Assembly: GCA_018897155.1 (NCBI GenBank) | Contig: JAHILE010000040.1 | Coordinates: 1 to 64,000, forward strand | Direction: 5' to 3' | DNA: 64,000 nucleotides | From: Nanoarchaeota archaeon | GTDB lineage: Archaea > EX4484-52 > LFW-46 | In this document: positions 44,057-57,228 of the stretch, piece by piece | Layout of the letters: each line of letters begins with the position of its first letter | How positions within the stretch are numbered: position 1 is the first letter of the stretch | Program-made: the position numbers and the translations under genes | The notes under the pieces: model-generated | What the model saw: the letters and a program-made list of their open reading frames with translations, nothing else | What the model was told of the DNA's origin: nothing | Database searches by the model: none

Positions 44057-45097
44057 TCATTTCCCTCGCTTCATTTTCGAAAGTTCTGCATCAAGCTCTC
44101 TTTTGTATTCCGCACCCACTGGCTTGCCTTTGTAAAAATCAACTTTTATCGCCATCGACAGCTTTGATGCAAGAAGGCGCGCCATTTTCCCTTTCCTCTC
44201 AAACGGCGCCTGCTGAACATAATTTGTCTGGAACAGTATGCCGTATTTCGGCGACTTTCCGCCGGTTACGAGATGGCGGAACAGCGCTTTTTCCGCGCCA
44301 AGAATCTGAATTGTAGATGACGGGAATTTGGCAAGCTTAACAAGCGAGCCGGCAATAGCCAGGAGCCTTGCCGCAATCACGCTTCCAATAATAGCCGTTG
44401 TATTCGGCATGATTTCTTTTAATCGCGACTCGACATATCCCTCTATTGATTTTCTCTGTGCATACATTGCCTGAAGCGACTTCGCAAGGCTTTGCATCTG
44501 CAGAAGGTCTTTCTTTTCTATATCCGCGCCTATAGTCTCTGAAACATCAATTCCTTTGACATCTTTGCGGTAAAGCTCATCAGCAACATAACTTACCATT
44601 TGCTCGCTGTCCTGCATCTTTTCAAGAAGCTCAGGAAAGTAATATCCATACCACTCGCGCAGGCGTATTGAAAGCAGATTAGTGGTTTTATCCAGCTCGT
44701 CAATCGCATTCACTGCCTGTATGACCAGCTTGTCGTTTGAGAAGTCCGAAACCATCTTTTTTGCGGATAATTCGAGCGCAATAGAAGAAACAAATTCGAA
44801 AAGCATATCCCTTGACGCGATTCCGCTTTTTGATGCTATTGTTTCAAGGTTCCTGCGCAGGTATTCGCCGGCAGGATTCGGAAATTCGTGCTCATATCCT
44901 TCCTTTCTCTGCTCAAAAACGATTTTATCTGCCGCAATTTGCGAAAGAAGCTTTTTTTCGGCGTCGGTTACCGCGTATTCTGAGCATGCGTGCATGCTTT
45001 CAGCGGCTTTTGCGCGGTCAAAAAGGACGTGCCCAATCTCCTTGCCAGATGCATCAACTACAAATACGCCAAGCGCGCAATACGAAACAAAAATCAT
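44057..45097 (-). CDS. nop5: Nop5, C/D RNP scaffold protein
   Basis: Scaffold joining fibrillarin and L7Ae-bound guide RNA. The 346-residue protein has the N-terminal fibrillarin-binding domain, a coiled coil (residues 110-240) and the NOP domain: MPNTTAIIGSVIAARLLAIA, GSLVKLAKFPSSTIQILGAE, KYGILFQTNYVQQAP and GKMARLLASKLSMAIKVD. The start ATG 45097 lies about 30 bp after a TATA-like TTATATATGG on the minus strand; GTG 45106 is the alternative. Upstream of flpA with overlapping translation context. Confidence 0.96.
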   Translation of the reverse strand: MIFVSYCALGVFVVDASGKEIGHVLFDRAKAAESMHACSEYAVTDAEKKLLSQIAADKIVFEQRKEGYEHEFPNPAGEYLRRNLETIASKSGIASRDMLFEFVSSIALELSAKKMVSDFSNDKLVIQAVNAIDELDKTTNLLSIRLREWYGYYFPELLEKMQDSEQMVSYVADELYRKDVKGIDVSETIGADIEKKDLLQMQSLAKSLQAMYAQRKSIEGYVESRLKEIMPNTTAIIGSVIAARLLAIAGSLVKLAKFPSSTIQILGAEKALFRHLVTGGKSPKYGILFQTNYVQQAPFERKGKMARLLASKLSMAIKVDFYKGKPVGAEYKRELDAELSKMKRGK

Positions 45098-45233
45098 GAA
45101 AACCACAATACCTTAATACACTCCATATATAACTATTTTCAAGTTTTTAATGCAGTGCCTAAAAACTATCACACACCATTAGTGCTTTAAATAGCTTTAA
45201 AAATGTATTAGTCAATAAATATGAGAGATACTT

Positions 45234-45425
45234 ATGGGAAGAATCAAGCAAAAATTCATAAAAAACAGGGCCTTTGAGCTTGTCTGCGAACACGAGAAAT
45301 TCACCACGGATTTCAAAAAGAACAAGGAAATCCTGCCTGAATTCGCGGATGTAAAGAACAAAAAAACAAAGAACAAGCTCGTGGGTTACATAACTAGGCT
45401 TGAAAAACAGAAAAAAAGGTATTGA
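45234..45425 (+). CDS. rps17e: Ribosomal protein eS17
   Basis: A 63-residue basic protein: MGRIKQKFIKNRAFELVCEH, FTTDFKKNKEILPEFADV, NKLVGYITRLEKQKK. This is the archaeal/eukaryotic eS17 pattern and length. It has its own TATA-like sequence (GCTTTAAATAGC, about 45182-45193). Confidence 0.95.
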   Translation: MGRIKQKFIKNRAFELVCEHEKFTTDFKKNKEILPEFADVKNKKTKNKLVGYITRLEKQKKRY

Positions 45426-45503
45426 TTCTTGTCAGTGGCATAAGCGCCATACCGCACAGATTAAAGTATTTAACTTTTGAAGGGTAAAATAATCTGTGAA
45501 TTG

Positions 45504-46142
45504 ATGATACCTGAAGAATCCAAAAATCTGGTTCTTGACGAAAGCGCAAAAACAGTAAAAATCACGCTGAATCCGCGGCTTTATCCGCAGACTGTTGTGA
45601 TGCGCGCAGCCTACCGTTTCACCGATGATTTCGACGTTATTGTTGACGGAGATCCTCTGTCAAGCATATTCGTAACGCTAAAGGTCAAGGCAGAAGATGT
45701 GGAAAGCACAACGCGTAAAGATTTGGAACAGCTTGAAAATGCTTTTTTCTCCGAGCTCATCCATGCAAATGTCGAAGAGACTCAGTCGCGCAGGTATGCT
45801 GATACAAGAAACGCGCTGATAGGGGCTGCGCTGAGGAACTTAATGGTCCAGGCAACACCGGAAAAGATTGAGAATATCGGAAAAAAACAAAAAACAACTG
45901 ACGAAGAAAGTGCTTTTGATAAAATTTACAAATACATGCCAAAACAGAATTGTGGAAAATGCGGCGCAGATTGTGAAAAAACCGCAAAAAAAATACTTAC
46001 AGGTGCTGCGAATCCAAATACATGTTTTCATCTGAAAAGGGCAGAATTTTCTGTGGTGCGAGAAGGGCTTGAAAATGCGCTTATTGCGCTAAAAAACAAT
46101 AATGATTGCTATGAGCTTAATAAGAAAGACGAAAAATGCTGA
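45504..46142 (+). CDS. HxsD-like protein fused to a 4Fe-4S-type cysteine motif
   Basis: First gene of the radical SAM/RiPP cluster. Residues about 10-115 match the HxsD pattern of bacterial His-Xaa-Ser systems: a beta start, YPQTVVMRAAYRFTDDFDV, IFVTLKVK, ENAFFSELIHANVEETQSRR and DTRNALIGAALRNLM. In Hxs loci this small protein is essential but of unknown role. After a linker comes IYKYMPKQNCGKCGADC ... NPNTC (about residues 144-175), which resembles the 4Fe-4S domain of corrinoid Fe-S proteins (C-x2-C-x3-C then a distant C). ATG 45504 is used; TTG 45477 would add 9 residues. A TATA-like TATTTAAC lies at 45467-45474. Overlaps the next gene. Confidence 0.75.
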   Translation: MIPEESKNLVLDESAKTVKITLNPRLYPQTVVMRAAYRFTDDFDVIVDGDPLSSIFVTLKVKAEDVESTTRKDLEQLENAFFSELIHANVEETQSRRYADTRNALIGAALRNLMVQATPEKIENIGKKQKTTDEESAFDKIYKYMPKQNCGKCGADCEKTAKKILTGAANPNTCFHLKRAEFSVVREGLENALIALKNNNDCYELNKKDEKC

Positions 46143-47067
46143 TTCCATTCTGGCAAATGGTGCCTGTCAAACCGCAGAGCATGGCAAAACAGATTATATT
46201 CTTATAGGCATCAACAGAATTTGCGATAATGACTGCCTATTCTGCACAGATAACGAAAGCCATCCGGAATTAAACACAGATGCTAATGGCGTTATCAAAA
46301 GAATCGATTCACTAAATATTAAAAAATACCGCACAATAATACTCTCTGGCGGAGAGCCTGCAGAACAAGAAGGAATATCGGGAATAATATCACACTTAAC
46401 TAGAGAGGGTCATACGGTTCAGATAATCACAAACGCAAGAAAATTTTCAGATAATATATTTTCAAAAAATGTTGCGGATTCTGGCCTGAAAACCGCAATT
46501 ACTGAAATACATTCTTCGATTCCCGAGGTACATGACTACATCACGCAAAGGCCCGGAAGCTTCAACGAAACCGTACTCGGAATAAGAAATCTAATTAATC
46601 TGAATGTAAACGTGCAAATAAAAATCATACTGAACCGCATAAATTACAAGACTTTGCCGCAGATTATAAAATATATTTGCAGGACATTCCCGGAATCAAA
46701 AATCAATATCACAACAACAAACATTAGTGGAAACGCACTAAAAAATAAGGAATTACTCGCGGTCCGATTCTCTGAGGCTGCTGAGTACATAGAAAAAGGA
46801 ATAAATGTTGCAAACCGATTTAATGCGCGAGTTTCTATCTCATGTTTGCCGCTTTGCGTGCTTCGTCCGCAGTATCGCACGTACATATTATCGAATGTAC
46901 AATACCAGTATCTTGATGTTGGAAGCGATAAGATGCACACGCCAAAAAGGCACTTTGCACCATCATGCGAACGCTGTATTGATTCATGCAGATGCATGGG
47001 ATTTTGGCGCAGCTACCTGGACTTATTCGGAGAAAGCGAAATACCCCCCATATTTGCGAAAGATTAG
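46102..47067 (+). CDS. HxsC-like radical SAM enzyme 1
   Basis: A 321-residue radical SAM protein. The Fe-S motif is C-DND-C-LF-C in INRICDNDCLFCTD; SGGEPAEQEG is the SAM-binding GGE motif. The C-terminus has an extra cysteine group CERCIDSCRCMGFW, a short SPASM/Twitch-like site. It is paralogous to the gene at 47508 (shared ALKNKELLAVRFSEA.. / ALKNKDMLGIRISDT.. and a PLC/PPC-IL segment), and both resemble HxsC maturases. ATG 46111 is an alternative start. It overlaps the HxsD-like gene by about 40 bp. Confidence 0.85.
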   Translation: MIAMSLIRKTKNADSILANGACQTAEHGKTDYILIGINRICDNDCLFCTDNESHPELNTDANGVIKRIDSLNIKKYRTIILSGGEPAEQEGISGIISHLTREGHTVQIITNARKFSDNIFSKNVADSGLKTAITEIHSSIPEVHDYITQRPGSFNETVLGIRNLINLNVNVQIKIILNRINYKTLPQIIKYICRTFPESKINITTTNISGNALKNKELLAVRFSEAAEYIEKGINVANRFNARVSISCLPLCVLRPQYRTYILSNVQYQYLDVGSDKMHTPKRHFAPSCERCIDSCRCMGFWRSYLDLFGESEIPPIFAKD

Positions 47068-47077
47068 CAAACGCGTT

Positions 47078-47141
47078 TTTATAATTTGGCTGACAATTTA
47101 GTATATGCCCAGTAGATGCGTTAGCGTATGTAATAAGGTGC
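47078..47141 (+). promoter_or_regulatory. Promoter and ribosome binding site of the RiPP precursor
   Basis: TTTTTATAAT at 47077-47086 is a good TATA box, and GGTG at about 47137-47140 precedes the ATG at 47146. The 78-bp gap is the only sizeable space within the cluster, so the precursor can be made at higher level than the enzymes, as is usual for RiPP precursors. Confidence 0.6.
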
Positions 47142-47145
47142 TTCA

Positions 47146-47496
47146 ATGAGTTTAAAGGAAAAACTGGAAAGAATAAAAAACCAGAACATAAAAAAAGCGT
47201 TTGAACTCCCGGAAAATGAAAAAACCGGAGTTGTAAACGGGCTCCTGATTCTTGGCGCGGCCATCGGAGCGCTAATAAGCCAGCAGCAAACCGCACATAG
47301 CACTCCGACGCCGACAAGCTGCGCAGATACATTAAACGACAAAGTAACGGAAACAGAAATACCTGCAAATAATCTGGATTTGGGTTTTGTTGAAAACTCC
47401 TGGCAGGACCACTGTTGGTGGGATCATTGCTGGTGGGATCATTGGGACCATTGGGATCATTGGGATTTTACATTGTTTGCAAATGGTGGTAATTAG
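47146..47496 (+). CDS. RiPP precursor peptide with DH[CW]W/HWD repeats
   Basis: A 116-residue protein placed between radical SAM genes. Residues 1-28 are a charged leader-like helix, 29-45 a hydrophobic stretch (VVNGLLILGAAIGALIS), 46-85 a Thr/Pro/Asn-rich linker, and residues 86-107 the repeat core: WQDHC, WWDHC, WWDHWDHWDHWDF. The tail is TLFANGGN. HxsA precursors of bacterial Hxs systems also have hydrophobic segments and C-terminal His-rich triplet repeats, but of type His-Xaa-Ser. Here each unit offers His, Trp and Asp, two also Cys. Predicted substrate of the flanking enzymes; the product is unknown (inference). Confidence 0.8.
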   Translation: MSLKEKLERIKNQNIKKAFELPENEKTGVVNGLLILGAAIGALISQQQTAHSTPTPTSCADTLNDKVTETEIPANNLDLGFVENSWQDHCWWDHCWWDHWDHWDHWDFTLFANGGN

Positions 47497-47507
47497 GTGA
47501 CGCACGT

Positions 47508-48404
47508 ATGACGAATAGATTATACTGTGCATTTAGCTACGAGTGCAACAACAATTGCCTGCATTGCGCAGCTGATTCGGAAAAACAAAGAAATCTTTCA
47601 CTGTCTATTGAAGATATTGAACGGCTGCTTAAAAAAATAGACGAAATGAAAGACGTTGAAGTGGAACTTTCCGGAGGCGAGCCGACGCTAAAGCCAGAAT
47701 TATATTATTTCCTTGCGCGCCTGACTGAAAGCCATCCGGAAATAAAGCACGTACTGCTTACAAACGGGCGCACATTTTCAAATCCCAACAACGCCGCAAA
47801 ACTGAGTGAATATAATCCATACAGCATTTTTGTGCCGCTTCATGCTGACACGCGAGAACTTCACGACAAAATTTCCGGCGCAAAAAACAGTTTTGATGAA
47901 ACAATGCTCGGCTTAAAAAATATGTATGAGTATCGCCTTCCGGTAAATATAAAAACAGTTGTCAATAAGCTGAATTATCAGCGCATGCCGAATCTCGTTG
48001 AAATGGTTGCGCAGACACTTCCAGAATGCAAATGGATTACGCTGAATGGCCTAGAACTTTCCGGAAGGGCGCTAAAAAACAAAGATATGCTTGGAATAAG
48101 AATAAGCGACACCAAAACACATATAGAGAAAGCCATAGACATGGCAAATAAATACGGACTTAGAATCGCCACTTACTCCATCCCGCCTTGCATCTTAAGC
48201 AAAGATTATTGGAAATATGTCGGAAGAAAGCGGCGCAACGTCATAATTACAAAAACGCCGACAACAGACATGAAACGCGTTGAATTAACGTACGGAACCG
48301 TGCCTGAGTGCAAAGAATGCCGCTTTTTTAACGGCTGTACGGGTGCGTGGTATAGTTACTTTGAGGTTTATGGAAAAGACGAACTGAAACCGGTGATAAA
48401 ATGA
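47508..48404 (+). CDS. HxsC-like radical SAM enzyme 2
   Basis: A 298-residue radical SAM protein with CNNNCLHC (residues 13-20), GGEPTLKPE, and C-terminal cysteines in CKECRFFNGCTG. Clearly related to the enzyme encoded at 46102, suggesting duplication around the precursor gene. HxsC proteins modify His-Xaa-Ser repeat precursors by an undetermined reaction. It starts 11 bp after the precursor stop and overlaps the HxsB-like gene by four bases (ATGA), so the genes are translationally coupled. Confidence 0.88.
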   Translation: MTNRLYCAFSYECNNNCLHCAADSEKQRNLSLSIEDIERLLKKIDEMKDVEVELSGGEPTLKPELYYFLARLTESHPEIKHVLLTNGRTFSNPNNAAKLSEYNPYSIFVPLHADTRELHDKISGAKNSFDETMLGLKNMYEYRLPVNIKTVVNKLNYQRMPNLVEMVAQTLPECKWITLNGLELSGRALKNKDMLGIRISDTKTHIEKAIDMANKYGLRIATYSIPPCILSKDYWKYVGRKRRNVIITKTPTTDMKRVELTYGTVPECKECRFFNGCTGAWYSYFEVYGKDELKPVIK

Positions 48405-49801
48405 CTGAAAATAAATCCGATGCTATGTGCAGCACGGTTTGTGCGCCAAACGAATATTTTACAAAAAAACTATCAACTGGAAAGTATCTTGTGACTACGC
48501 GGCACAGACAGTATGCATTTCTTGACGCCAAGGAATATGACTTGCTTTATAGAGAACAATTTCAAGAAAATAAAGAGCTTTTTGAAAAACTGGAAAAAAC
48601 AGGCATCATATTCACTGAAAAAAACATTAAAAAAATAGTGGGCTCGTTTGAGAAACAATACATATTTCTTTTCTTTCCAAAATCGTTCCGAATTAATTTG
48701 TCAAATGAGTGCAATCTCATGTGCAGTTACTGCCTGTCAAATGCGACCCCCACCCAGCACGAAACAATGTCAGACGAATTAGTGGATGCAACAATCAAAT
48801 TCATGCTTTCTGCGCCCGGAAAAAAGTTTTATATGGAATTTCAGGGAGGCGAACCGCTTGTAAAATTCAATGAAATAAAAAAATTCGTAGCGAAAATAAA
48901 ACTTGCTGCTGAGGTGGGAAAAAAAGAAATAGAAAAAATAGTTATTGTAACAAATATGACTCTCATGACTGAAGAAATAGCAGAATATCTGCTCGAAAAC
49001 AACATAGGGTTATGCTCTTCCCTTGATGGGCCTGAAGAGCTTCACGATATCCATCGCAAGTTTGGCGGCGGCGGCGGAACTTACAAAACAGTTACAAAAT
49101 GGCTTTCGTACTTTCGGGAGCGAGGTAAGACAATAAATACGCTGCCCACAATAACTGCACACAGCATAAAATTTGGCGCGCGAAAAATAATTGACGAATA
49201 TCTCAAACAGGGATGCATTCGAATCCCCATTAGGGCAGTAATTCCGGTTGGGCGGGCAAAACAAAATGACAACCACACATATTCTGCAGAAGAGTTCATT
49301 GCGTTTTGGAAAGATGCTGTCGAATACCTGGTGGAAATAACGCTGAATGGCAACCCCGTATTTGACCCTAACACGCAAGCAATGCTAAGAAACATAATGG
49401 ATGGCCCGGTATCCTATATGTGCATGCGAAAACCATGCGGAGGTGCAATATCGCACATGTCGATATCCTGTGACGGAACAATCATGCCTTGCGACCTTTC
49501 AAAAACACTGCCTGAAATGGCTATCGGAAACGTGCGCGAAAGCCATATTGATGTTGCTCTAAGGACAATTAACATGAATGCGCGAACTTCTGATTTCCAA
49601 CCGCTCTGCAACACCTGCGCGTTCGGGCCGTACTGCGGAAACTGCTACACCAGAACGCGTGCCGTTTTTTCCGATGAAACCCCGAGAACTCCGCGCGACT
49701 TTGAATGTAAAGTAAACAAGGCAATGTTTACATATCTTTTTGAAAAAATGCAGGACGCAAAATACGTAAAAGTTTTCCGCATTTGGATAAATGGCAGGTG
49801 A
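48401..49801 (+). CDS. HxsB-like SPASM radical SAM enzyme
   Basis: A 466-residue radical SAM/SPASM protein. Residues 15-100 form a leader-recognition-like part (KYLVTTRHRQYAFLDAKEYD and LLEKLEKTGII-type text typical of HxsB), then CNLMCSYC, FYMEFQGGEPLVKF, VTNMTLMT, SSLDGPEELHD. The C-terminal SPASM region has CGGAISHMSISCDGTIMPCD and CNTCAFGPYCGNCY, enough cysteines for two auxiliary Fe-S clusters. This domain order matches the HxsB maturase. It overlaps HxsC-like 2 at ATGA and is followed by a membrane-protein gene with coupled translation. Confidence 0.9.
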   Translation: MTENKSDAMCSTVCAPNEYFTKKLSTGKYLVTTRHRQYAFLDAKEYDLLYREQFQENKELFEKLEKTGIIFTEKNIKKIVGSFEKQYIFLFFPKSFRINLSNECNLMCSYCLSNATPTQHETMSDELVDATIKFMLSAPGKKFYMEFQGGEPLVKFNEIKKFVAKIKLAAEVGKKEIEKIVIVTNMTLMTEEIAEYLLENNIGLCSSLDGPEELHDIHRKFGGGGGTYKTVTKWLSYFRERGKTINTLPTITAHSIKFGARKIIDEYLKQGCIRIPIRAVIPVGRAKQNDNHTYSAEEFIAFWKDAVEYLVEITLNGNPVFDPNTQAMLRNIMDGPVSYMCMRKPCGGAISHMSISCDGTIMPCDLSKTLPEMAIGNVRESHIDVALRTINMNARTSDFQPLCNTCAFGPYCGNCYTRTRAVFSDETPRTPRDFECKVNKAMFTYLFEKMQDAKYVKVFRIWINGR

Positions 49802-49805
49802 TTAA

Positions 49806-50654
49806 TTGTATTCGCTCATATTAAAGGCAGCAATAGTTGCAGCAATCTTGAAAGCGACAAACGCGTTTAAATGGCGCGCAGTTATTGTATATTTCTTGCT
49901 GTCAGTTTTTATGATATACTTCTCCGGCGCACAATATGCTCCGGAAAGAATCCTAGTATACACATTTGAATTTTTTGCAGCATATGTCGCAATCGGCATC
50001 ATTAAGTACCGCATAAATCGCGCAAAAACAAAAACCCCCGTATACGGAGGAGTTACTCTTTCGCTGAATTCGCTTCTGTTAATGTTTTCAATGGGCTACA
50101 TGTTTGCGCTTAGTGAAATAAATAAATATGCTTCGTTTTTTGTTACAATGCTTCTTTTTTTTATTCTCAATAAAAACGCTTACCGAAAAAAAATGATTTT
50201 GTTTTGGAAGGCCGTATTTATGTTGTCAATAATTCATTCGCTAATAATTTCCGGCGGCAGAACGCTAATAACCCCGACGTATTTTGTTGCGACATACGCG
50301 GTAATAACACATCTTTTTTTCGCTGCAAAAGATGCGTTCAGTTATGCACATTCGCCTGAAGAATTAACCGAGGGTATGATGCCGGCAGAAAGTATTGTTC
50401 AAGACAATAAAAAATATATTTTCGGAAGCACGCTGTTCCCGAGTGCGTTTGGGCTTATTAGATATGTCGCAGGCGACATTCTGCTGAAAAGACGTGTTGT
50501 GGCTTCATTTTTTGTTCCGCTAACAAAGAAAAACATTCTTGAGATAAGAAAAATCGCAAAGGAACATAAACGTCCTTTTTTTCTTGTGCAAAAAGAAATA
50601 GACTTTTTGCCATTCATTGTTTTGGGCGCAATTGTTGCACTTTTAACAATGTAG
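49806..50654 (+). CDS. Polytopic membrane protein with prepilin-peptidase-like C-terminus
   Basis: A 282-residue protein with about six membrane helices and a cytoplasmic region. The start is TTG with a perfect GGTGAT ribosome binding site five bases away, directly after the HxsB-like stop, so it belongs to the RiPP operon. The segment SPEELTEGMMPAESIVQDN ... LTKKNILEIRKIAKEHKRPFF ... IDFLPFIVLGAIVALL resembles the C-terminal part of archaeal A24 (FlaK/EppA-type) prepilin peptidases. The two catalytic aspartates (one in a GxGD-type loop) are not seen: SGGRTLITP stands there. It could be an inactive relative, a transporter or a divergent processing protease. Confidence 0.6.
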   Translation: MYSLILKAAIVAAILKATNAFKWRAVIVYFLLSVFMIYFSGAQYAPERILVYTFEFFAAYVAIGIIKYRINRAKTKTPVYGGVTLSLNSLLLMFSMGYMFALSEINKYASFFVTMLLFFILNKNAYRKKMILFWKAVFMLSIIHSLIISGGRTLITPTYFVATYAVITHLFFAAKDAFSYAHSPEELTEGMMPAESIVQDNKKYIFGSTLFPSAFGLIRYVAGDILLKRRVVASFFVPLTKKNILEIRKIAKEHKRPFFLVQKEIDFLPFIVLGAIVALLTM

Positions 50655-50682
50655 CTTTTTATCGCGTTGCCAAAAATCGATT

Positions 50683-52776
50683 CTATGCAGCAATACAACA
50701 CACCTTACTTAAAAGAGGCATATCAACACAGCCATCACTACATGCCTCCATACCCGGTGGACAGCCGCCCATAAACTCAAATACAAGGTCACATGTTGGT
50801 GGTGGTGGCAATCCTACTTTGCAGCAGATTTTAGTTATTTCCTGGCAATCTGAAATAGTTATTTTAGGAACTTCATTTTCTCCTTCCAGACACGCACCCA
50901 AAAAATAGCACGTTCCGCCGTTATCGGCGCACGTTAATCCAGCTGGTGCGTCTTTGCAGCAAAGTTCACCTGCATCACAAGTTCCTGAAGCGACGATCTT
51001 GCCAACAGGACATCCCGCTCCTGCTTCACATGTCTGGCCTGCTGTATTTTCACATGTGTATAATAGCGGCGAGGGCACTTCAATTGGAGGTACTGTTTGA
51101 GGCCCAAAAGCACCGCCGCTTTGCGTAGAACAAACATGGCCGAAATCATCGCATGCATTGTCATCCACTATATCTATTTCGACAAAAAAGGTAAACTGGT
51201 ACGGCACCCATTTCTTTTCAACGCTGTCAAAAACATTATATTTTTCATCGATAATCGTCACATTTATTGGAACGTTTTTTAAAACATATCTACTGTCATA
51301 ATGCATGTAACAAGTATTTGAAGTATCACAACCGCCAGTACAACCAGATGTTGATGAGCATTTGCCCGTATTCACAGCCAATCCGCTTTTGTATCTATAA
51401 TATTCCAAATTTTGGCCGCTGCACCATTCGTTTTCATCGGCGGATGGTTGAGAATTTATGGGGCATATTTGAAAATCTGGTGCAATGCTAAGTTTCAATT
51501 TTATATCCGCCCCCACATTATCAAACTGATTTGATATATCACCGGCGATAATATCCAAGCCGCTGTTAAGGACAATCCGAAAATCAACTGCAGTATATTG
51601 TGGCGTAGGGTCTGAAGGGCATCCGTTCGCATAACTCAATCTTCCAGAATTGCATCCAAGTGTGTTTGATGGTATTTGATGATCTACCAACGTATTAAGT
51701 TGATTATACCATCTCGGCTTCACCCACGCCTCATAATTATCAACAAAAAACTTCGCGACCCCGTACATTCTCCAGTACCTGATTTGAGCGTCTTCTTCTA
51801 CAAGGTTCCAGTTTTTCAGATTGGCGTCTGCGCTCAAGGAGCTTATTTTGTCGGGCCCATAAGCACTTCCTCTCAAAAAGCCTTCGCCGTTATTGAGCGT
51901 CTCGTAAACGCCTTTCCCTGCCGGCACAAAAAAAGCATTTAACGGTTCTATCTCAAAGCGTTGTAATTTGAGTTTTTGTCGGTAGCTTTCTATACTTGCG
52001 TTAAGTGCTGCATTAAGATTATTCACAACATCTTTGTCATATATTGAAACCGCCATAACACGAATATGCGCAACATCAACGGCAGAGCCAGTAAATATGA
52101 GTGTAATATCCTCAACAGAATTTTGCACAATGCTGTTTCCAATTGGAAGGATTGTCGTGCCTGAGGTTGTGATTGTTGTAACACCATTACAATTTGCATT
52201 CTGGCAAATCTGGACATCAACAGATTCTTCTTTCAGCATAATCACATTAAACATTATGTTCAGCTGATAGTCTCCTCGCACAACATCCTTCATAGTCTCG
52301 ACATACTCCGCGGCGGAAACTACTGTGTATGTCTTGGCATCTGTTCCAAGCTTAAAATTGGCATCAATATAAGACAAATACGGCATTCGTTTTCGTATTG
52401 TGCTCTCGGAAGTTCCAACTGTCTTGCATCGGGAAACCGCAAAATTCAGAACGCCGTCGGTAATGTCCATTTTCGGCACAGGATCATTTCCAGGATCTCC
52501 ATCAGTAGCTGCAGTAATTACTGCCGCGCTTACTCCGCCATGCACTCCAAGCTCCTTTGCAGTATTCATGAGCCCAAAAAAAAGCGCGGTTTTTTCAAAC
52601 GACTGCTTTATTCCGTGAAGCGCAAGATTAGCATCAGATATTGCGTCAGCACTTCTTGAAGATGTGCCCTGCGCAGCAGAAAATCTAAAAAGATCATATA
52701 ATAAGGCACTGCCCAAAGCAATAACTAAAAAGAAGACCCCGAACAAAACAAAATGCCTTGACAATGCTTTTTTCAT
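50683..52776 (-). CDS. Large membrane-anchored cysteine-rich pilus-type protein
   Basis: Last gene of the minus-strand pilin-like operon, 697 residues. One N-terminal membrane helix (HFVLFGVFFLVIALGSALLY) is followed by a helical segment and a long external region. The last 250 residues hold many cysteines in pairs (CSSTSGCTGGCD, CDAGELCCKD, ICCKVG, KVCCIAA), likely disulfides. It could be a pilus tip or adhesin, comparable to large minor pilins. Its stop lies 28 bp from the convergent RiPP operon end. Confidence 0.65.
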   Translation of the reverse strand: MKKALSRHFVLFGVFFLVIALGSALLYDLFRFSAAQGTSSRSADAISDANLALHGIKQSFEKTALFFGLMNTAKELGVHGGVSAAVITAATDGDPGNDPVPKMDITDGVLNFAVSRCKTVGTSESTIRKRMPYLSYIDANFKLGTDAKTYTVVSAAEYVETMKDVVRGDYQLNIMFNVIMLKEESVDVQICQNANCNGVTTITTSGTTILPIGNSIVQNSVEDITLIFTGSAVDVAHIRVMAVSIYDKDVVNNLNAALNASIESYRQKLKLQRFEIEPLNAFFVPAGKGVYETLNNGEGFLRGSAYGPDKISSLSADANLKNWNLVEEDAQIRYWRMYGVAKFFVDNYEAWVKPRWYNQLNTLVDHQIPSNTLGCNSGRLSYANGCPSDPTPQYTAVDFRIVLNSGLDIIAGDISNQFDNVGADIKLKLSIAPDFQICPINSQPSADENEWCSGQNLEYYRYKSGLAVNTGKCSSTSGCTGGCDTSNTCYMHYDSRYVLKNVPINVTIIDEKYNVFDSVEKKWVPYQFTFFVEIDIVDDNACDDFGHVCSTQSGGAFGPQTVPPIEVPSPLLYTCENTAGQTCEAGAGCPVGKIVASGTCDAGELCCKDAPAGLTCADNGGTCYFLGACLEGENEVPKITISDCQEITKICCKVGLPPPPTCDLVFEFMGGCPPGMEACSDGCVDMPLLSKVCCIAA

Positions 52777-52780
52777 AAAA

Positions 52781-53299
52781 TCATCCCCTTGTTTTCAATA
52801 CCACTTTGGCAACGTCGCCGTTTGGAAGAGCGATGTACTCAAAGGACAAAACATTGAAACCGGTAGGGCCCATACTGGGCATTCCATAACATCCCGAAAC
52901 CCCGAGAAGTGGTGGGCAGAGTACGGAATGTTCTACATAAAAATCATATGTTGTAATAGATAGTTCCATTAACCACCCAAAACAATCCACAGGTTTCACA
53001 GAGTCTGTTTTCCCTCCGTACTCTATTTGAACCACGTCGCCTAAAAAGCTGTTTGTTTTCCCTTCGCCAATACCTATTGCTAACACATCCCTTAAAGGCA
53101 GTTTTGTATTCGGTGCGCAATCCGTGCTTTCAAGTATGCTGTGAAGCGCATATTGTGTAGTTTTGCTCTTATCATCATATAATAGTGACGTTACTTTCAG
53201 ATAAGCCACAATTGCTATTATCACTATGAATATCAGCATTATAACCAAAAGCCATGGCGCAAGAGGCTCAGTCTGTCCGCACCTTTTTTTGTTATTCAT
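52781..53299 (-). CDS. Single-helix membrane protein of the pilin-like operon
   Basis: 172 residues: a polar N-terminus (MNNKKRCGQTEPLAP), a membrane helix (WLLVIMLIFIVIIAIVAYLK) and an outer beta-rich domain with five cysteines. ATG 53299 follows GATGATT, a good ribosome binding site; ATG 53326, which overlaps the preceding gene, is the alternative. Four bases separate it from the next gene. Specific function unknown. Confidence 0.65.
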   Translation of the reverse strand: MNNKKRCGQTEPLAPWLLVIMLIFIVIIAIVAYLKVTSLLYDDKSKTTQYALHSILESTDCAPNTKLPLRDVLAIGIGEGKTNSFLGDVVQIEYGGKTDSVKPVDCFGWLMELSITTYDFYVEHSVLCPPLLGVSGCYGMPSMGPTGFNVLSFEYIALPNGDVAKVVLKTRG

Positions 53300-53312
53300 A
53301 TAATCATCTAAC

Positions 53313-54020
53313 TTAGCTACAGGCATCATCAAACCCCACTGTTTGAAGCGATTTATCACATATTTTTGAACAAAAACATTTTGTATAAGGGCATTGAATG
53401 TCGCAAAGGCATAGCGGATATCCATCTGCGTAAAAATCAGTTCCTGAATCCGCGTCCAATATTACTTTTATTGATGCAAGAGCCATTTTATCATCGCTAT
53501 TTACGACGCCGGAAAATCTTAAAAAATTTCCATCACTGCCGTAATTATAAGGGGATGGCATAAGCGTTTCGAACCCGAGCGGCCCTCCAACAGTCGAATA
53601 TAAAAAAAAACCGCGATCCGAAATGCAACGTTTAGTTATTCCGCGAGCATGCGTATTATATGCATAATCAATATTGTTGTTGTTCTGAAAATACCACGTA
53701 TCGGTCCCGCTTTTGACTTCAATATAATACAGAGAGCCGGGCAGGTCCAGCGGTTCCGATGTTCCGGCGCAAACAATGCTATTGTTGTACTTGTCGAGAG
53801 CAGTCTTGTTAAATACAAATTTTTCTGTTGATCCTTTTACGTCATTCAAATTTATGCACGGAGCTGACAAAAGCTTTTCTGAAAGCGCTATTGAAGATCC
53901 GCGAGTTTCTATATCTCCTATAACCGTCTTTGCCCATACAAATATTACAATAAGCGCAACTGCGCAAGCAGTGCCTATGATGACGTAAATTGCAGACATT
54001 AAATTATCAACAAATTCCAT
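53313..54020 (-). CDS. Pilin-like membrane-anchored protein
   Basis: 235 residues with an N-terminal membrane helix (SAIYVIIGTACAVALIVIFVW), a beta-rich outer domain and a cysteine-rich end (CLCDIQCPYTKCFCSKICD). The helix position matches neighbours in the operon. No known domain is recognised. Confidence 0.65.
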   Translation of the reverse strand: MEFVDNLMSAIYVIIGTACAVALIVIFVWAKTVIGDIETRGSSIALSEKLLSAPCINLNDVKGSTEKFVFNKTALDKYNNSIVCAGTSEPLDLPGSLYYIEVKSGTDTWYFQNNNNIDYAYNTHARGITKRCISDRGFFLYSTVGGPLGFETLMPSPYNYGSDGNFLRFSGVVNSDDKMALASIKVILDADSGTDFYADGYPLCLCDIQCPYTKCFCSKICDKSLQTVGFDDACS

Positions 54021-54029
54021 TATATCCCT

Positions 54030-54497
54030 CTAGCAAAAAGATTCTTGAAATACTGCATTGCAGCAGGCAGTACCTTGGACACAAACTTCGACAAACGGCC
54101 GGCATGAATCAGCCGGATCTTTTTTCTTAATAACGCAAAATGCACGGGCTTCAATTGGCGTAATTATCTGCTTTAGCTCCGCTGTGTAGTGGCTCATTTT
54201 AAGCTTCGGCGTTAATGCTTCAATAGTGATGGCATCGCCGGAGTACTGAACTTGTATTGAATCTTCATCAATTTCCACAGTATAATTTTCATCATTCGGC
54301 AGTTTATATATCGCAATGCCGTTTTCAGCCACAGATATTTGGACGATGGTGTTTCTTAGCCCCATTATGGCAAGCTCTGTTTCGCCCCGCTTGTCTGCAA
54401 AAACATTGGCTGTTGTGGAAAGGGCAAATACCAATATGACAACCACTATAAGAAGCGCTCCGATACCGTTTATAACATTTCCAACAATGCCTTTCAA
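54030..54497 (-). CDS. Pilin-like membrane-anchored protein
   Basis: 155 residues. The N-terminus MKGIVGNVINGIGALLIVVV is the short Lys-Gly start plus hydrophobic helix seen in archaeal type IV pilin-like proteins. A globular beta-rich region and cysteines near the end (CRPFVEVCVQGTACC) follow. In a tight operon with neighbours on both sides (4-9 bp). Confidence 0.65.
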   Translation of the reverse strand: MKGIVGNVINGIGALLIVVVILVFALSTTANVFADKRGETELAIMGLRNTIVQISVAENGIAIYKLPNDENYTVEIDEDSIQVQYSGDAITIEALTPKLKMSHYTAELKQIITPIEARAFCVIKKKDPADSCRPFVEVCVQGTACCNAVFQESFC

Positions 54498-54501
54498 AAA
54501 A

Positions 54502-54711
54502 TCACCAAAAGCTCAAAAGACCGGCGCATGCAGACCAGTCCCATCTCAGGCAATCCAAAATTTTTGCCGTTCTTTCAGCAACAGGAATTGCCGGACCCAT
54601 TGCTGCGCTGATAAAGTAAAAAACAATCACTAAAAGTATTATAAATATAAGCAGCTGCCGGATACCGTCTATAGAAAATACAAACGCGCCCTTCCGCCTT
54701 GAAAAAATCAT
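54502..54711 (-). CDS. Small pilin-like protein
   Basis: 69 residues: SRRKGAFVFSIDGIRQLLIF is a class III signal-like segment (R-R-K-G before the hydrophobic helix), then a short outer part with two cysteines. Such sequences are cut by prepilin peptidase before the helix. Too short for a globular head; may be a minor subunit. Confidence 0.6.
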   Translation of the reverse strand: MIFSRRKGAFVFSIDGIRQLLIFIILLVIVFYFISAAMGPAIPVAERTAKILDCLRWDWSACAGLLSFW

Positions 54712-54749
54712 ACTATTATATTATATCAAAGGCTATTAATATAAGTTCT

Positions 54750-54971
54750 CTATAGCAGCCAGCAGAGCGGCAGGCACTTGACAAGGCCATTCTCAGGAAT
54801 ACATTTGCCGCAGTCTGAAAGAGACTTGAACATGCCTGTTGATTTTGTCAAAAAGCCGGAATTCGTATTTACAAAAAACAAAATTACTAAAACCGCCATA
54901 ATCAGGCCCAGAATTATGATTATGGTTGTTGAATTCACCTCTACCTGGCCTTTAGGTGATTTTGAGTTCAT
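54750..54971 (-). CDS. Small pilin-like protein
   Basis: 73 residues: NSKSPKGQVEVNSTTIIIIL includes K-G-Q, the classic archaeal prepilin cleavage context, followed by the hydrophobic helix GLIMAVLVILFFVN. A short tail has four cysteines (CGKC, C, C). Probably a minor pilin. Confidence 0.65.
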   Translation of the reverse strand: MNSKSPKGQVEVNSTTIIIILGLIMAVLVILFFVNTNSGFLTKSTGMFKSLSDCGKCIPENGLVKCLPLCWLL

Positions 54972-54989
54972 AGAAGTCCTCGATTGCGT

Positions 54990-56945
54990 TCAGGCTTTTG
55001 GCTGACATACCGCTAAGACATTATTCCAGATACATGCAGAACATTTCGGGCAATTTGTCTTGGTATTGTATGTCGGAGTTCCGCACAGATCGCCGCATTT
55101 GCTTACACAGGTTTCTAAAACCCATTTACATAGGCTTGAACAAACATCACAATATGTCTGGCTAGTGCCCGCATATTCCGCACAATTATATCCGCAGGAA
55201 AAGAACGCCACGCTCTTTGACCATGTAACCGGAGTTGCCAAATTATCTGCGCTTGCAGATGTTGCTAATGTGGCGCTGACCGATGTTTCAAGCAGAGGCA
55301 CTGTCGGCGAATCCTCTTTAAGGAGAACAAATGAGTAATTCCTTGACGCACTTACCGGAATATTTATATTATCGCCGCCCAAAAGAGCCAAATCCTTTGC
55401 CCCTAACTTTGCGCTAATATGATCGCTAACTTTTATCGCTGCCATGGTACCCGTATTTTTTACAGTGACGTTAACAATGCGATCACTGACGAGGTCTTCA
55501 TAAATTCTTGAAACACCGATTTTTTTGTCTTGAATATATACATTCGTTATCTCAAGCTTTGGCGCTTTGCAGCTTCCATCTGCGCATCCTGTTAAGCAGG
55601 AATCATCTGCCTTAGTAGTATATTTACAGCCCGTCACAGTATCAGAATATCCAGAATCGCTCGGGCCTGAAAGGACATAATCACCGTCACATCCACCAGT
55701 TTGCGATGAACACGACCAGGTAAAATCTTTTTCAATATAATTTATTATGTATGGCTTCGTATCAAATGTTTTTATGCAAAGAACGTTTTTGCCATCCCCT
55801 TGGCGCTCAACACGCAGCGTATTTTTTCCATCATTAAAGCCGCCAACTCCGACCTTAGGCAGATCAAACAGAATTTCTTTAGGATTTGCGGGATTAATTT
55901 TCTTCCCTGCAATAACTTCCACAGTATTCAGCTTAACCACAACATGCGCGGGATTCCAAATATCGCTTTCAAATATCGCGCCCATTTGCTTTCCAGGCCC
56001 AAACGGCAGATCTGCGTCAAAAGTGACTGCCGGGCAAGTCCATGAAAAACTAACATCACGATCTGCTGTTTCAATTCCGCGTTTTACGTGAATTTTCAAA
56101 GTATACCCGCCATTATACAAAGCTGCCACAGGCACTCTAAAACTATAAGACGCCATATTTTCGATGCAAGCAACAAGAGGACCTAGATTGCATTTTTGTT
56201 CAACCCCTCCTTTCCGTAATATAACTGTTAGACCGTCCACGGGGTTTTCAAGTGGTCCCATACCCACTTTAATTTTAACATATACTTGTTCTCCTGCTTT
56301 TACTGAAGATATTTTAATGTCACAATTCACATCTGAACAAAGAATAACGCGATTTACGCCCGTTTCTTCTTCCGCTTCTTCTTCATCTTCCTGAATTGGT
56401 TTCGCGCCTTTGTCAACCAACATCGTAATCGGCTTTGACGGGTAATTATCTGCGCTGACAGTTAGCGTCACATACCCCTGCTGAATGTTTGTGGTGCTTA
56501 TTGTACCTTGATAAACTCCAGGAGTTGTGGTTTCATCGAACGCGTCCGTTATGTATGGCCCTGTTATTGTTCCGCCGGTAATCGGAGCGCCATTATATGT
56601 CAGTGCGATGTTTATTATATTCTCCCCCTCGCCTAGTTTCTCCGGATAAGTTGCTTCAATTGTCTTTGCCAGATGATCTAAAAATTCCCTGCAGGTCTGA
56701 TCATTCATCTGCGGGTCTTTTACCGTCAAACATGCGGCGCCTGTCGGATTATCATTGCACACTTTTGTGCAATAATCTATTTTTGAAGAATTGCTTCCAA
56801 GTGAGGGATCTGTGCCTTTTATTATTTCTTCCGTTCCTGTTGCTCGCCCGTTTAGGATAATATAAATAATTGCAGAAATTGCCAAGAGCACGATTATGTA
56901 AATCACCATATTCATTGAAACTTCAAACGTGCCTTTGCGTTTCAT
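54990..56945 (-). CDS. Large pilin-like surface protein
   Basis: 651 residues. N-terminus MKRKGTFEVSMNMVIYIIVL is a class III signal-like start with K-R-K-G before the helix. The outer part contains Ig-like beta domains (NIALTYNGAPITGGTITGPY; VKAGEQVYVKIKVGM; VNVTVKNTGTMAAIKVSDHI) and a C-terminal stretch with more than twelve cysteines (CGYNC, CDVCSSLC, CVSKCGDLCG, CPKCSAC). Could be the main adhesive subunit of the filament. ATG 56945 is favoured by GGTG upstream; GTG 56951 is the alternative. Confidence 0.7.
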   Translation of the reverse strand: MKRKGTFEVSMNMVIYIIVLLAISAIIYIILNGRATGTEEIIKGTDPSLGSNSSKIDYCTKVCNDNPTGAACLTVKDPQMNDQTCREFLDHLAKTIEATYPEKLGEGENIINIALTYNGAPITGGTITGPYITDAFDETTTPGVYQGTISTTNIQQGYVTLTVSADNYPSKPITMLVDKGAKPIQEDEEEAEEETGVNRVILCSDVNCDIKISSVKAGEQVYVKIKVGMGPLENPVDGLTVILRKGGVEQKCNLGPLVACIENMASYSFRVPVAALYNGGYTLKIHVKRGIETADRDVSFSWTCPAVTFDADLPFGPGKQMGAIFESDIWNPAHVVVKLNTVEVIAGKKINPANPKEILFDLPKVGVGGFNDGKNTLRVERQGDGKNVLCIKTFDTKPYIINYIEKDFTWSCSSQTGGCDGDYVLSGPSDSGYSDTVTGCKYTTKADDSCLTGCADGSCKAPKLEITNVYIQDKKIGVSRIYEDLVSDRIVNVTVKNTGTMAAIKVSDHISAKLGAKDLALLGGDNINIPVSASRNYSFVLLKEDSPTVPLLETSVSATLATSASADNLATPVTWSKSVAFFSCGYNCAEYAGTSQTYCDVCSSLCKWVLETCVSKCGDLCGTPTYNTKTNCPKCSACIWNNVLAVCQPKA

Positions 56946-56955
56946 AAACACACCA

Positions 56956-57228
56956 TCAACATACCGTCATAATCCCTTTAGTTACGCAGTCGCCTCCAAA
57001 ATCGTCCCAAACACAGCCGTCTCCATAAATCTGCTTGCAAGTGTTGCATCTTTCCTGGCATATCTGGGCTTGAATCACATTGTTCGCATTATCTGAAGTG
57101 GCTTGATTTCTTTCATCTGCCTTATTTGTAGAACTGCTGAAAACCAGAAGGATTACCACGGCAACTGCCAGCGCAATCACTATTGCAATAATAATCCACA
57201 TAGCCTGGCTTGTTCCTTTTTTAAACAT
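56956..57228 (-). CDS. Small pilin-like protein
   Basis: 90 residues: FKKGTSQAMWIIIAIVIALA is a K-K-G start plus helix, followed by a short helical region and six cysteines (CQERCNTCKQIYGDGC, C, C). Fits a minor pilin of the same operon; ATG is only a base after the preceding stop. Confidence 0.65.
   Translation of the reverse strand: MFKKGTSQAMWIIIAIVIALAVAVVILLVFSSSTNKADERNQATSDNANNVIQAQICQERCNTCKQIYGDGCVWDDFGGDCVTKGIMTVC

Follow-up and report, generated by a model that had tools for sequence, protein, structure and literature searches.

A probable tryptophan-repeat branch of the His-Xaa-Ser peptide maturation systems in a DPANN archaeal lineage

Introduction

What does a His-Xaa-Ser (Hxs) enzyme set modify when the peptide encoded in its midst carries no His-Xaa-Ser repeat? 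The question is raised by six genes within a 64,000-nucleotide stretch of Nanoarchaeota archaeon DNA (contig JAHILE010000040.1, positions 1 to 64,000; hereafter the window), from a genome assembly of 62 contigs and 1.43 Mb. The initial annotation had described them as an archaeal Hxs relative with a switched repeat, in which an HxsD-like protein, two HxsC-like and one HxsB-like radical S-adenosylmethionine (SAM) enzymes and a membrane protein are encoded on one strand with a 116-residue repeat peptide. To our knowledge, the chemistry of Hxs systems has not been determined so far. We examined the locus and its relatives (denoted by labels, G for a genome and L for a locus), and conclude, with a probability of about 0.7, that it represents a distinct Trp-repeat branch of Hxs peptide maturation in which Trp is the modified residue.

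Results

All of the open reading frames (ORFs) described were present, tightly packed on the + strand between window positions 45477 and 50654; neighbouring genes overlap or lie a few bases apart, the surroundings of the precursor being the exception. The HxsD-like gene (45477..46142; its start codon is uncertain, either TTG at 45477 or ATG at 45504) is followed by HxsC-a (46102..47067), a second HxsC copy; the 116 amino acid precursor (47146..47496); HxsC-b (47508..48404), the primary HxsC; an HxsB-like enzyme with Pfam Radical_SAM and SPASM matches (48401..49801); and MEM, a seven-transmembrane (TM) protein (49806..50654). A TATA-like sequence at 47077..47086 (+), 60 bases upstream of the precursor, is a possible separate promoter for the peptide. 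We asked if the radical SAM genes might belong to unrelated families. They do not; the top NCBIfam match of both HxsC copies was HxsC (TIGR03977), that of the HxsB-like enzyme was HxsB (TIGR03978), and that of the first gene was HxsD (TIGR03976, E 5.8e-10), with scores against the equivalog cut-offs of 39.4/50 bits for HxsD, 137/268 for HxsC-a, 175/268 for HxsC-b and 280/370 for HxsB.

Homologous precursors adjoin the same enzymes, in the same position, in 13 other genomes of one DPANN phylum, whose neighbourhoods were read after an HxsB scan that gave matches in 22 of its 34 genomes; the conserved precursor gene beside homologous clusters, on which the initial annotation depended, does exist elsewhere. 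Relatives found with the HxsB profile in named collections were mostly metagenome-assembled genomes labelled Nanohal(o)archaeota, Aenigmatarchaeota or DPANN group archaeon, which makes the source of the window a DPANN archaeon; a single-protein scan of the named genomes with HxsC-b gave no match, whereas the HxsB profile did find relatives there. Eleven of the precursors can be aligned over their full length and share an E-[KR]-T-G motif in the leader, followed by hydrophobic residues, an AxA-like site, a Cys present in every sequence and the Trp core, and the window peptide accordingly has a charged N-terminus, EKTG and a hydrophobic HxsA-like leader, an AxA-like site and then the core. The three most distant members (G031-G033) have a different leader and retain the Trp-x-x-Trp core and the gene order. 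The ratio of nonsynonymous to synonymous substitution rates (dN/dS) between near relatives was about 0.1-0.34, and the pattern W-x-x-W-x-x-W-x-x-W was found in 1 of the 751 stop-to-stop segments of the window. Because of the homologues in 13 genomes, the low dN/dS and the rarity of this pattern, we consider the precursor a real gene. The 116 residues matched no Pfam or NCBIfam family, HxsA families included. When leader profiles of 12 Trp-type and 17 His-Xaa-Ser precursors were compared by hhalign, the score was 30.6 (E 2.5e-6), versus a maximum of 14.7 among 100 column-shuffled controls. Judged by its leader sequence, the Trp-type precursor is a distant relative of HxsA.

The core repeat of the window precursor (WQDHCWWDHCWWDHWDHWDHWD, residues 86-107, window 47401..47466, + strand) is supported by spacing and composition statistics. 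Trp makes up 117 of the 448 core residues in the 14 precursors, and successive Trp residues are spaced by 3 (45 times) or 2 (28 times). Residue i+2 from a Trp was Asn or Asp in 57 of the 88 cases where it was not itself Trp, versus a background of 28% (p 1e-12, a value overstated by the relatedness of the sequences), and each of the 14 cores has Asn, Asp or Glu at this position in its first unit. The HWD/DHxW repeat proposed initially does describe this species; as a family motif it was rejected, since the constant element across the family is Trp, and Trp-Xaa-(Asn/Asp) is the better description. One HxsA-like precursor (L039, 14777-15160, - strand) mixes HSSHDSHDS and WGGW elements, and is possibly an intermediate in repeat type.

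Canonical H-x-S precursors were also found within the same phylum, so the repeat switch is confined to one branch and is not a property of archaea overall. The archaeal variant first proposed is otherwise supported: the leader is HxsA-like and the repeat is no longer His-Xaa-Ser. Beside the 69 nearest HxsB relatives outside the phylum, from archaea and bacteria, H-x-S precursors were seen in most cases and Trp-type precursors in none. A profile of the Trp precursor gave no match in about 830 genomes of other lineages (sets of 19, 156, 371 and 286, overlapping slightly), a negative that covers close relatives only, there being no positive control in those lineages and the profile missing the divergent G033 precursor. 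The loci of G022 were left out because two of its contigs match loci of G003, resembling bin contamination, which is probable here. The matching Trp-type loci in G022 and G003 are L047/L048 and L049/L050; G022 is otherwise H-type and of another family.

In a quick, unrooted tree of 78 HxsB sequences, all 16 Trp-type proteins formed one clade, with a support of 96 in the Shimodaira-Hasegawa-like approximate likelihood ratio test (SH-aLRT), and a bacterial H-x-S lineage (L070) joined this clade (SH-aLRT 99). As the Trp-type proteins fall in one clade, the topology is consistent with His-Xaa-Ser having been replaced by Trp just once, provided that the root lies outside. The HxsC gene of L052-L055 is a tandem fusion of 587-611 aa; in a tree of 50 sequences, its N-terminal halves grouped with the window HxsC-b (SH-aLRT 98), and HxsC-a grouped with its C-terminal halves (SH-aLRT 99). 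Since the two are fused in four relatives, with halves matching each copy, HxsC-a and HxsC-b probably act together as a pair. Loci of the same families with a single HxsC have W-x-W or short cores, G031-G033 being exceptions. The HxsD-like protein bears an extra C-terminal 4Fe-4S domain (PF04060, 24.8 bits versus a cut-off of 23) at window 45940-46040, shared among the relatives read by L059 alone (3796-4497). Only the two lineages in which HxsC-a is a gene of its own have this extension.

Homologues of MEM adjoin HxsB in most Trp-type loci. Its AlphaFold2 model (mean predicted local distance difference test score 83.5) has seven TM helices and a C-terminal alpha/beta domain, and a Foldseek search of this model against the PDB gave no match; kinship came from profile comparison. 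The alignment of MEM with 18 A24 proteins of canonical Hxs loci by hhalign (probability 99.5, E 1.2e-22, 234 columns) showed that MEM begins past the first catalytic helix and matches the C-terminal two-thirds of the Hxs-linked A24 peptidases. Both catalytic Asp motifs (D-x-K/R..N and GD-x-K) are lost in 12 of 12 sequences, the N-terminal part being gone and GD replaced. MEM is predicted on this basis to be a truncated, non-catalytic relative of the A24 (prepilin-peptidase-like) proteins, and the Trp branch to retain just the non-catalytic A24 part. Similarity between MEM and the A24 protein of the source genome itself was not significant. By motif, intact A24-like genes were found in 31 of the 69 Hxs loci outside the phylum (19 of the 37 with full flanks); PF01478 matched 8 of 8 tested Hxs-linked examples, 6 of them over its cut-off, and NCBIfam held no named family for the four such proteins tested. 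Because intact A24 genes are present in many canonical loci, a dedicated A24 peptidase that cuts the leaders of canonical Hxs precursors is a reasonable hypothesis; among the papers searched, none links prepilin peptidases with radical SAM ribosomally synthesized and post-translationally modified peptides. Such genes lie in L086, L088, L100, L073, L080, L090, L044 and other canonical loci, and in Clostridia between hxsA and hxsC.

Downstream of the cassette and convergent to it lies a block of pilin-like, anchored secreted proteins (window 50683-57228, - strand). PIL1 (50683..52776), the first gene, encodes a large membrane-anchored secreted protein; its homologue was found in every Trp-type locus whose contig covers the site, in none of the His-type loci, and in 21 of the 34 genomes. 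Its model, of low confidence, shows a long N-terminal helix and beta domains, with weak Foldseek matches to jelly-roll or carbohydrate-binding-module-like and other beta domains. PIL1 contains conserved cysteines. The next three genes encode membrane-anchored pilin-like proteins: PIL2 (52781..53425; homologues in L046, L050, L051, L054 and L061, no informative Pfam match), PIL3 (53313..54020; an ORF with an N-terminal TM segment and no sequence match in the other loci compared) and PIL4 (54030..54497; homologues in L051, L054, L058 and L060-L062). Two ORFs for N-terminally anchored proteins, PIL5 (54990-56951) and PIL6 (56956-57228, with homologues in several loci), complete the block. A U32-family gene (PF01136 in L057 and L039) was seen in both Trp-type and H-type loci (L049, L056, L057, L175 and L037, L039); relatives of this family include tRNA hydroxylases, and the gene may encode an accessory modifying enzyme.

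This neighbourhood raises the alternative that the peptide is itself a pilin-like subunit, cut by an A24-type peptidase at the leader glycine (EEG↓K, EKTG↓V) and assembled into the adjacent type IV-like structure, an outcome compatible with crosslinking. The leader has the expected charged N-terminus, glycine and hydrophobic helix, the block flanks Trp-type loci, the source genome has one A24 peptidase and three T2SSF gene pairs, and the A24-like genes of the Hxs loci outside the phylum point the same way. However, the catalytic part is gone from MEM in Trp-type loci, the leaders also fit an ordinary signal-peptidase AxA site, and several genomes of the phylum have the block and no Hxs cassette. 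We regard a pilin-like fate as possible, though on the unlikely side.

Discussion

We return to the reading that this locus is a Trp-repeat branch of Hxs maturation. The known triceptide enzymes link Trp to C-beta of an i+2 residue that is Asn, Asp or Arg; Phe is linked to Asn or Ser, and His to Ala or Arg (PMC11002830). The core motif would suit this three-residue cyclophane chemistry because position i+2, where it is not Trp, is mostly Asn or Asp, and His-Xaa-Ser would suit the same register. In the sequence of events that we propose, the leader would be bound by HxsB, and perhaps by HxsD; HxsB and the HxsC-a/HxsC-b pair would then modify the repeated Trp-Xaa-(Asn/Asp/His) units, the likeliest chemistry being the joining of the Trp ring to the beta-carbon at i+2, as in triceptides. 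The hydrophobic segment of the leader would bring the peptide to the membrane, where, after cleavage, it would either be set free or be displayed at the cell surface alongside the neighbouring pilin-like proteins. That each Trp is crosslinked to the C-beta of the residue two positions on is drawn by analogy and is tentative; we would place it somewhat short of even odds.

Several observations speak against the branch, its crosslink or its surface role. The scores of all four enzymes lie under the NCBI curated equivalog cut-offs and the repeat differs, so that by strict test the locus is not a canonical His-Xaa-Ser system; it was filed as an Hxs variant, probably Hxs-like in action, on the strength of a shared enzyme set and the homology of its leader. 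W-x-W tracts, in which i+2 is Trp, occur in four loci, so the three-residue rule is not universal, and as a strict rule the register was rejected on account of these cores. A surface role of the peptide is inferred with gene neighbourhood as its sole basis. The association of PIL1 with the Trp precursor (14 of 14 genomes with the precursor versus 6 of 19 without; Fisher p 5e-5, 33 genomes, G022 excluded) counts in favour of our reading, but comes from a test that treats related genomes as independent. In G030, a genome of the same genus (L167 6882-10078, compared with window 44057-52776), genes that we take from their sequence to be NOP5 and S17e are followed directly by PIL1 and the cassette is absent; because this site is empty, the cassette appears to be a separable module beside the surface-protein block. 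Lastly, HxsB scored higher in NCBIfam with PapB (145 bits) and SCIFF-type thioether maturases (103 bits) than with GrrM/OscB (63 bits) or YhhB (66 bits), and its best-scoring solved structure was 5wgg, a 'Radical SAM domain protein' which we take to be the thioether enzyme CteB.

This closeness of HxsB to the PapB and SCIFF maturases and to 5wgg, and the presence of Cys within the repeats of many cores, would suit a thioether (ranthipeptide-like) maturation in which HxsB links Cys sulfur to nearby residues and Trp is structural. HxsB does lie outside the three-residue cyclophane-forming enzyme families (63 bits versus a cut-off of 310 for GrrM/OscB, 66 versus 445 for YhhB). However, Cys is inconstant in the repeat tract, regular Cys is missing from canonical H-x-S cores too, and the G004 core has 13 Trp, one His and no Cys; because of this last core, thioethers are unlikely as the general product, and we consider this explanation improbable.

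The window core is rich in His and Cys (WDHCWWDHCWWDHWDH), and with the extra 4Fe-4S domain on the window HxsD this could indicate a metal- or redox-active surface peptide, in which metal binding is the function and the radical SAM change is minor. Neither His nor Cys is a constant of the core in this family (as G004 again demonstrates), whereas Trp and Asn/Asp are conserved, and the FeS domain is restricted to two lineages; such a role appears slightly less probable than thioether formation. Least likely is a Trp-rich, membrane-active, bacteriocin-like peptide directed against neighbouring cells, with MEM as immunity or export protein, since although a small and probably secreted modified peptide adjoins a polytopic membrane protein and the cassette is missing from a same-genus genome, as for a dispensable weapon, MEM is related to A24 proteins and not to a known immunity or transport family, and the locus is conserved in four families of the phylum beside one constant neighbour, which is not the pattern of most bacteriocins.

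The Trp-repeat branch may be extended into a broader proposal: that a DPANN lineage swapped His-Xaa-Ser for Trp-Xaa-Asn/Asp while keeping the short aromatic register, making tandem Trp cyclophanes on a surface peptide associated with a structure that resembles type IV filaments, and that the Hxs family as a whole forms aromatic-to-C-beta crosslinks in tandem, with a dedicated prepilin-type A24 peptidase to cut the leader. Taken together these steps are speculative, with the odds clearly against the full set. A natural His-to-Trp switch that keeps the short register narrows the range of reactions open to the enzymes and suggests a crosslink from ring to side chain, and the Cys-free, 13-Trp core of G004 can separate thioether from carbon-carbon chemistry. 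For leader removal, the intact A24 peptidases of many canonical loci suggest a concrete route. Should the peptide be displayed with the pilin-like block, it would be a surface peptide with modified residues, in archaea whose presumed way of life is attachment to other cells.

Comparison with known systems

The locus resembles the His-Xaa-Ser systems (HxsA/HxsA3/HxsA4, HxsB, HxsC, HxsD) in its enzyme set, gene grouping, homologous leader and an aromatic residue in a short register. Trp-type loci differ from them in the Trp repeat with Asn/Asp two residues on; in the paired HxsC (HxsC-a/HxsC-b) of several lineages, sometimes fused; and in a truncated A24-like protein, predicted to be non-catalytic, with a pilin-like block flanking the locus. 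Set beside the archaeal A24 prepilin peptidases with an Arc_PepC domain, MEM has the C-terminal 230 residues in common with the Hxs-linked A24 proteins, whereas helix one is missing from it, as are the two catalytic Asp motifs. Among characterised radical SAM/SPASM enzymes, the ranthipeptide/SCIFF maturases (PapB, CteB) are nearest to HxsB by profile score; theirs act on Cys, whereas the Trp-type core needs no Cys. With the triceptides (XncB, OscB/GrrM, MscB, HaaB, YhhB) the locus may share the core motif aromatic-X-(Asn/Asp), Asn and Asp being acceptors in known Trp cyclophanes (PMC11002830), though four loci have W-x-W tracts instead; it differs in that the window HxsB falls outside their enzyme families and has HxsC and HxsD as partners.

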